Origin: Candidatus Hydrogenedentes bacterium CG07_land_8_20_14_0_80_42_17
Lineage (GTDB): Bacteria > UBA8481
Direction: 5' to 3'
Length of the DNA: 6,739 nt
NCBI GenBank assembly: GCA_002780065.1
Contig: PEWQ01000039.1
Location: 1 to 6,739 of the forward strand
Shown here: piece after piece, positions 187 through 989 of the stretch
How the letters are laid out: the number at the start of each line of letters is the position of its first letter
Numbering within the stretch: the first letter of the stretch is position 1
Notes under the pieces: generated by a model
The model's database searches: none
Told to the model about the DNA's origin: nothing
Seen by the model: only the letters and a program-made list of their open reading frames with translations
Made by a program: the position numbers and the translations under genes

Positions 187-230
187 TTATTAGAATTGAC
201 GAAGCCCGAAAGGGAATAAGGAGGTTTGCC

Positions 231-989
231 ATGTATAATTTGGTTAGACCGTTTAGAGCAAGAAGAAGTAGTGGCGTTAGTACGGTAGAATACGGGATAA
301 TGATTTCGTTATTGTCCGCAACTTTATGGGCGGTTTTTGCAACTTGGAAGATTTGGGGCTGGGGCGACAGCGATGATTTAGAGAGGCATCTTGGAGAGGG
401 CCAGGCCGAACTTGCTCAATTGATCGATGATACAGCCGCACCTGAAGCTGTTCCTGATCCTACGTGGACTAACGACAATGGGACATTTACAGTTGCTAAT
501 CCGACTGCGACGACTCGAGTCAGTGTCAGATACATGGGCGCAAATGCCGGACTTGCATCTGTTTCAAGTCTTTGGATGCGGATAAGGCATTCCGACGGAA
601 GCGTCGAAGACATTCAGTTGACTGAGAATAATACTGGCGCCGCTAGAGATTTAGTTTCTGACAAAGTATTGGCTGATGGCGATGACATTTCGTTTATGCT
701 TAGAGTCAAACCAAAGCCATGGAGCACTTCTTATTACAATTTCCAGAACTCAAGAGGCAGGCTTACCGGCACCGGCACTAGCGCATATTATGATGTTCCG
801 ACCTCGAATTCAACTCCGCCGGACAATGTGACTACCGTAACGAATTATGCGGCAGGCTCACCAGGAAATTATTTCGGAGTTGATGAATACCATATCGGAT
901 ATGAGGACTTGGCTCTCGATTATAGCGGTTGCGACAGAGACTACAACGATGCGGAATTCAGAGTTGCTTTGACAACTACAGAAGAGTAG
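231..989 (+). CDS. Flp-type (type IVb) prepilin with large DUF4114-like C-terminal domain
   Basis: This is probably an exported, processed pilin or pilin-like surface protein of 252 aa. A short basic leader (RARR at 9-12) ends at Gly15. It is followed by VSTVEYG, so Glu and Tyr are at +5 and +6 after the predicted cleavage, the diagnostic Flp/TadV-processed pattern. A hydrophobic helix covers about residues 22-43. Flp pilins are usually only 50-80 aa, but here about 200 extra residues follow. They look beta-rich, with Thr/Asn/Asp-rich stretches, and end in GYEDL (223-227) and DRDYND (235-240). That is the acidic signature I associate with DUF4114/LruC-type, probably Ca-binding, domains. The start is set by AAGGAGG six bases upstream of the ATG. 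The TPR gene follows after 9 bp in the same operon, and a sigma-54 promoter precedes the gene. The only cysteine is C234. It could be a minor or tip pilin, or an adhesin on a pilin stalk. The prepilin call is firm, the C-terminal domain call moderate. Confidence 0.78.
   Translation: MYNLVRPFRARRSSGVSTVEYGIMISLLSATLWAVFATWKIWGWGDSDDLERHLGEGQAELAQLIDDTAAPEAVPDPTWTNDNGTFTVANPTATTRVSVRYMGANAGLASVSSLWMRIRHSDGSVEDIQLTENNTGAARDLVSDKVLADGDDISFMLRVKPKPWSTSYYNFQNSRGRLTGTGTSAYYDVPTSNSTPPDNVTTVTNYAAGSPGNYFGVDEYHIGYEDLALDYSGCDRDYNDAEFRVALTTTEE

Follow-up and report, generated by a model that had tools for sequence, protein, structure and literature searches.

Pilus proteins with an additional functional domain

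Type IV pilins that carry an additional module are common, and more than 1,200 such proteins in 264 architectures have been described (PMC8179133). Among them, PilB and PilC of Streptococcus sanguinis present a functional binding module on a pilin N-terminus (PMC8179133). For the Tad system, the minor pilin CpaL of Caulobacter is fused to a vWA domain and has been proposed to be located at the tip (PMC12607857). The tips of the Myxococcus Tad pili are exchangeable minor-pilin complexes, and it was recently proposed that Tad pili are specialised through minor pilins exposing variable tip domains (PMC12075869). The domain DUF4114 is known from the Myxococcus pilus proteins PilY1.1 and PilY1.2, and in PilY1.1 the exchange D498A, which affects the putative Ca2+ site, causes a loss of the EPS-dependent colony-level motility, while pili are still formed (PMC9109919). 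Binding of Ca2+ and of glycans can be derived from relatives (PMC9109919, PMC11934332). In the literature searched, which left most subscription papers outside its scope, PilY1 was the only link between DUF4114 and pilins, and no Flp or Tad pilin carrying DUF4114 was found.

The window analysed here, a stretch of 6,739 nucleotides from Candidatus Hydrogenedentes bacterium CG07_land_8_20_14_0_80_42_17 (contig PEWQ01000039.1), contains at positions 231-989 of the forward strand a modular prepilin gene, which encodes a leader and a helix of the Flp class followed by a DUF4114 head. CpaL of Caulobacter crescentus is comparable with respect to the Tad system, the N-terminal prepilin module, the C-terminal adhesion-type domain with a metal site and the proposed tip position. 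However, its head is a vWA domain and not DUF4114, its helix and head are separated by a pilin-like beta module, and CpaL is much larger (residue numbers reach 626 or more). PilY1.1 of Myxococcus xanthus is comparable as a DUF4114 with a Ca2+-type acidic motif that is displayed on a pilus (PMC9109919, PMC13190605), whereas it is not a pilin and its DUF4114 is joined to a beta-propeller, which acts together with type IVa minor pilins. No family of beta-propellers, which PilY1 carries at its C-terminus, was matched in the 252-aa protein. PilB and PilC of S. sanguinis differ in their IPR012902-type signal, their pilin globular module and their vWA or lectin heads, and they do not belong to a Tad system. 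The Kil Tip complexes and the TadE/F/G minor pilins share the character of Tad minor pilins with variable, tip-exposed domains (PMC12075869), but the signal of the TadE type is EF, while the protein described here comprises the Flp-type EYG and is encoded away from the TadE/TadE/TadG-like cluster of its host. Taking these systems together with the sequence, we consider it probable, and most economical, that the protein is a modular Tad minor pilin which displays DUF4114 as an adhesin at the tip or close to it, perhaps as a Ca2+-dependent carbohydrate binder.

Organisation of the gene and its surroundings

The open reading frame starts with ATG and covers exactly the positions 231-989 (252 aa). 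A Shine-Dalgarno sequence, AAGGAGG, can be read directly at 218-224 (forward strand, as for all features of the window given here), with the start codon 6 nt further. The predicted prepilin leader (residues 1-15, 231-275) contains four Arg and would be cut after Gly15. It is followed by a predicted assembly or transmembrane helix (residues 16-42, 276-356), which begins with VSTVEYG and was assigned from a model and from the motif alignment with Flp pilins of the same genome. A second helix (residues 47-68, 369-434) was predicted by the single-sequence model with low to moderate confidence, and an Ala/Pro-rich linker comes after it. The remaining part is a predicted all-beta head (residues ~78-250, 462-980), for which the strands appear in two low-confidence models and in the alignment with full DUF4114 domains (L047 and others).

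A gene for a TPR protein of 261 aa, comprising one N-terminal membrane helix and subsequent TPR repeats (TPR_6 above the Pfam cut-off), is located at 999-1784. It begins 9 nt past the stop of the prepilin gene, and an SD-like AGAGG is present at 988-992. Based on this spacing and the SD-like sequence, both genes likely share one message. The membrane-anchored TPR protein is a possible assembly partner of the prepilin. In G001, the sole genome of the same order in our set, the ordinary Flp pilins of the host have close relatives, while neither the prepilin nor the TPR protein was matched. This observation fits a lineage-specific two-gene unit, judged on a sample of one same-order genome.

Further downstream, at 1909-2145, a small predicted lipoprotein of 78 aa is encoded, which is rich in Ala, Pro and Glu and contains a lipobox-like VACGS; its one match to a lipoprotein family lies below the threshold, and the gene is possibly, but not necessarily, part of the prepilin operon. 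The gene group is closed by an intrinsic terminator hairpin at 2201-2236 with a stem of 16 pairs and -23 kcal/mol (z -6.1; none of 200 shuffles was equally stable). Genes of the tad locus do not adjoin the prepilin gene. On both sides of the gene group, at 15-26 and 2262-2348 of the window, copies of a 17-bp tandem repeat were observed, CGCCTCGCGTCAATGGA, with the core CGTC-AATG-GACG. The repeat also occurs elsewhere in the host genome, namely on L014 and L015 near 16 kb and in about 35 other places, several of the matches being close to contig ends. A 27-base probe of the repeat gave 50 matches in the genome compared to 0 for the reversed control.

The head is a DUF4114 domain

Residues 148-247 (672-971) showed a score of 31.7 bits (E 3.1e-7) with PF13448, the Pfam family of DUF4114, for which the gathering cut-off is 27 bits, and the head alone reached 33.0 bits. 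A second profile, built from 31 other DUF4114 domains without the protein itself, resulted in 23.9 bits (E 1.6e-6), while no more than 10.7 bits were reached among 500 shuffled versions of the head and no more than 5.6 bits among 438 ORF frames, taken from seven contigs of the same genome. The acidic stretch GYEDL...DRDYND, which the earlier note had taken as the pattern of DUF4114, occupies residues 223-240, and in an alignment with three diverse members of the family E225, D226, L227, D235, R236, D237, N239 and D240 were invariant. Since the prepilin motif can be read directly and DUF4114 is supported by Pfam, by the second profile and by the acidic motif, both halves of the protein are regarded as real. 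Accordingly, the identification of the head as DUF4114 and the fusion with a prepilin in one ORF, both suggested in the earlier note, are supported at the level of sequence. Following the work on PilY1 (PMC9109919), the part EDL...DRDYND (residues 225-240, 903-950) can be regarded as a putative Ca2+ site, and by analogy the head is perhaps a Ca2+-dependent sugar binder.

All structure models were made without a deep alignment and are of low confidence (mean pLDDT below 50); the helix-helix-beta order and the all-beta head are in keeping with the proposed architecture, but do not constitute proof. The single-sequence AlphaFold model of the full length showed a mean pLDDT of 47.6 and a pTM of 0.39, with a helix at residues 18-42 (pLDDT about 65-70). 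For the head, a two-sequence AlphaFold model was all-beta with a mean pLDDT of 49.8 and a pTM of 0.52. With a low-confidence model as query, Foldseek resulted in generic C2-type or other beta-sandwiches with a best E of 0.0097, and VIA-align in C2-like or generic beta-sandwiches from the PDB with a best Z of 7.6, which is not significant; neither result is regarded as informative. Lectins of the BclA/LecB type were not among the matches of these fold searches, and a sequence search of the PDB yielded no believable match.

No homologue combining the prepilin signal with DUF4114 was found in a protein search of 97 other genomes or in the plasmids and viral contigs searched. DUF4114 itself was matched in 20 of 386 diverse genomes and in 21 of the 68 genomes of the phylum set. 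From these loci, which were retrieved in part, about 30 frames could be read; none of them showed a prepilin signal, and they encode lipoproteins, Sec-secreted proteins (many with PEP-CTERM) or segments of proteins of very great length. One frame flagged for the prepilin pattern (L034) was rejected as a chance match within a lipoprotein. A scan of the genome collection with a four-sequence DUF4114 alignment resulted in a single match, a PEP-CTERM protein from Verrucomicrobiia with 38% identity across residues 178-252.

The N-terminus carries a Flp-class prepilin signal

The N-terminus reads MYNLVRPFRARRSS-G|VSTVEYGIMISLLSATLWAVFATW, and residues 1-14 (MYNLVRPFRARRSS) are basic. The predicted cleavage after Gly15 is based on the type IVb prepilin pattern G|x4-E-Y; relative to this position, E20 is +5 and Y21 is +6, exactly the processing pattern described in the earlier note. 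The basic leader, G|x4-E-Y and the hydrophobic helix of a type IVb/Flp-class signal are all present. In the whole 2.39 Mb assembly, the DNA pattern for G-x4-E-Y-G occurs at six sites, compared to one for the reversed-pattern control. Only three of the six sites combine a position close to a frame start with a hydrophobic helix behind the motif, and these belong to the protein described here and to two ordinary Flp pilins on the contigs C144 and C55.

Although the protein shares G|x4-E-Y-G and the hydrophobic helix with the family Flp_Fap (PF04964; Pfam cut-off 32.2), neither residues 1-50 nor residues 1-74 matched PF04964 when E values as high as 10 were allowed, and the protein was absent from the matches of a search of the whole host genome with this family. 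Therefore it cannot be counted among the standard Flp pilins; by score its N-terminus does not belong to PF04964, and in this point the earlier note is not supported as worded. The helix contains W, T and S residues, which is unusual for Flp. With about 240 mature residues (237 after Gly15 compared to 41-77 in the sampled Flp pilins) and a C-terminal beta head, the protein also lacks the short mature form of Flp_Fap, so that its unusual length is borne out. As far as can be read from the sequence, it is a larger protein carrying a Flp-class signal, for which the formal family label is not earned. Matches to an N-terminus of the TadE (PF07811) or Tad (PF13400) families were not found. With a profile of 31 Flp N-termini the protein showed a weak score of 13.5 bits, while the best of 1000 shuffles reached 5.6 bits, and it ranked directly below the two real pilins. 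Since this very motif had served to select the 31 training sequences, one of which was taken by chance from a DUF4114 protein, this result is supportive rather than independent. Small profiles of the TadE type and of the type IVa type did not list the protein.

The missing PF04964 match and the position away from the tad genes would also agree with a membrane-anchored DUF4114 protein of the surface or the periplasm, which is not polymerised and whose N-terminus serves only as a signal anchor or derives from a prepilin signal by degeneration. Such a protein might cooperate with the membrane-anchored product of the downstream TPR gene, and the apparent co-transcription with this inner-membrane protein points in the same direction, as do the ordinary Sec or lipoprotein signals on all other DUF4114 frames that could be read from their start. 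However, the exact G-x4-E-Y-G after a basic leader occurs otherwise only on the true Flp pilins of the genome, and the Flp profile places the protein next after these and above all shuffles. An unpolymerised membrane protein is thus considered rather unlikely, and a modular Tad minor pilin remains preferred.

Matches to Flp_Fap were found in 70 of the 386 genomes and were nearly all short frames. Sixteen of these places were retrieved, mostly those with the longest frames, and no clear other long Flp was observed among the matches inspected. The long-frame matches could be attributed to short Flp pilins with an upstream open frame or to other proteins. Apart from these, an actinobacterial-looking frame of 315 aa (L074, 794-1738) comprises the Flp-like signal GQTAVEYLG and, in frame after it, a second hydrophobic segment resembling TadG, possibly a fused or overlapping pair of pilins.

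The signal of the Flp type, rather than the TadE type, and the strong Shine-Dalgarno sequence would be in line with a shaft subunit, of which many copies co-polymerise with the ordinary Flp pilins to give a filament studded with DUF4114 heads. The Ala/Pro linker could keep the head clear of the shaft, and for modular pilins a location within the filament body has not been excluded (PMC8179133). On the other hand, a location at tips is assumed for the bulky modular pilins described so far, the shaft is already provided for by the two ordinary Flp genes, and a long Flp was not clearly seen elsewhere in the inspected matches from the 386 genomes. A shaft subunit is therefore regarded as very unlikely compared to a minor pilin at or near the tip. 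A far-reaching variant, in which a Flp-class pilin with a complete Ca2+-dependent lectin-type DUF4114 head would be a self-contained sugar-binding Tad subunit, possibly studding the whole filament, is considered improbable as well.

Pilus machinery of the host genome

A pilus subunit of the Tad type depends on the presence of Tad machinery and a prepilin peptidase, and both are found in the host assembly, as the earlier note had asked for. The tad locus on contig C88 (L011) encodes CpaB/RcpC (93.7 bits with a cut-off of 71), a secretin, a TadZ-like protein (CpaE, of the response-regulator/ParA type), a TadA-type ATPase, TadB and TadC. CpaB additionally showed a sub-threshold repeat of the TSP3 type. 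With 1114 aa the secretin (L011, 5831-9175) is unusually long; a sub-threshold match of the BamE type and repeated 'GMT' segments ahead of the secretin domain were observed. Upstream of CpaB, a single-helix protein of 262 aa is encoded (L011, 3965-4753), which matched no family and whose N-terminus resembles TadG by eye.

Away from the tad locus, contig C131 (L065, 4432-7527) contains a cluster of TadE/TadE/TadG-like minor pilins, in which the two TadE-like genes score below the cut-off and the TadG-like gene above it (PF13400). The first two of these proteins contain calcium-type repeats DxDxDG. The cluster is a candidate for a Tad tip complex.

One prepilin peptidase of the A24 family, bifunctional and of the PilD type, was found on contig C116, and a TadV-type peptidase was not found in the assembly. 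Since the assembly is 86.9% complete, such absences are weak evidence. The genome furthermore encodes two longer proteins of the GspF/PilC type and type IVa prepilins (GFTLIEL type). Together with the PilD type of the sole peptidase found, these could point to a minor pilin of a type IVa pilus or a type II secretion system instead of the Tad pilus. Nevertheless, Tyr at +6 and EYG are features of the Flp class, and the protein was not listed by the type IVa profile, so that an assignment to these systems is regarded as highly improbable.

Proposed function

As a modular Tad minor pilin, the protein would enter the inner membrane, where the A24 prepilin peptidase would remove the leader up to Gly15, and TadA/TadB/TadC would assemble it via its N-terminal helix. 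The two ordinary Flp pilins are the likely shaft subunits. Since a standard Flp shaft would not accommodate a head of this bulk, the assembled subunit probably sits at or near the tip of the pilus, where the DUF4114 beta domain would be shown outside the cell as an adhesin. Its ligand would most likely be a carbohydrate, either extracellular polysaccharide or a cell-surface glycan, bound with Ca2+ at EDL...DRDYND. A role as an adhesin or as a Ca-dependent tip is plausible by analogy to the described relatives (PMC9109919, PMC11934332, PMC12607857).

In favour of a modular Tad minor pilin with this head are the score for DUF4114, the profile of 31 domains, the EYG signal, the tad genes, the cluster on C131 and the A24 peptidase. 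Against it stand the missing match to PF04964, the position of the gene away from the tad genes, the lack of a two-part homologue in the searches, the absence from the same-order genome, the pLDDT below 50 and the TadV-type peptidase that was not found. Altogether, the architecture of the protein is a modular one with two recognisable parts, while its function is a well-grounded inference.

With regard to novelty, a functional head on a pilin is known from modular type IV pilins and from CpaL, so that this feature is not new as such, whereas DUF4114 on a Tad-type prepilin was absent from the searched literature. The parts are thus already known, and their pairing, as recognised from sequence, was found neither in the sampled genomes nor in the literature searched. 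If true, the DUF4114 adhesion domain would be graftable directly onto a Tad-type prepilin, beyond its occurrence in the non-pilin PilY1. Furthermore, the protein would be a small, expressible candidate for asking whether a pilus DUF4114 is a Ca2+-dependent glycan-binding head.
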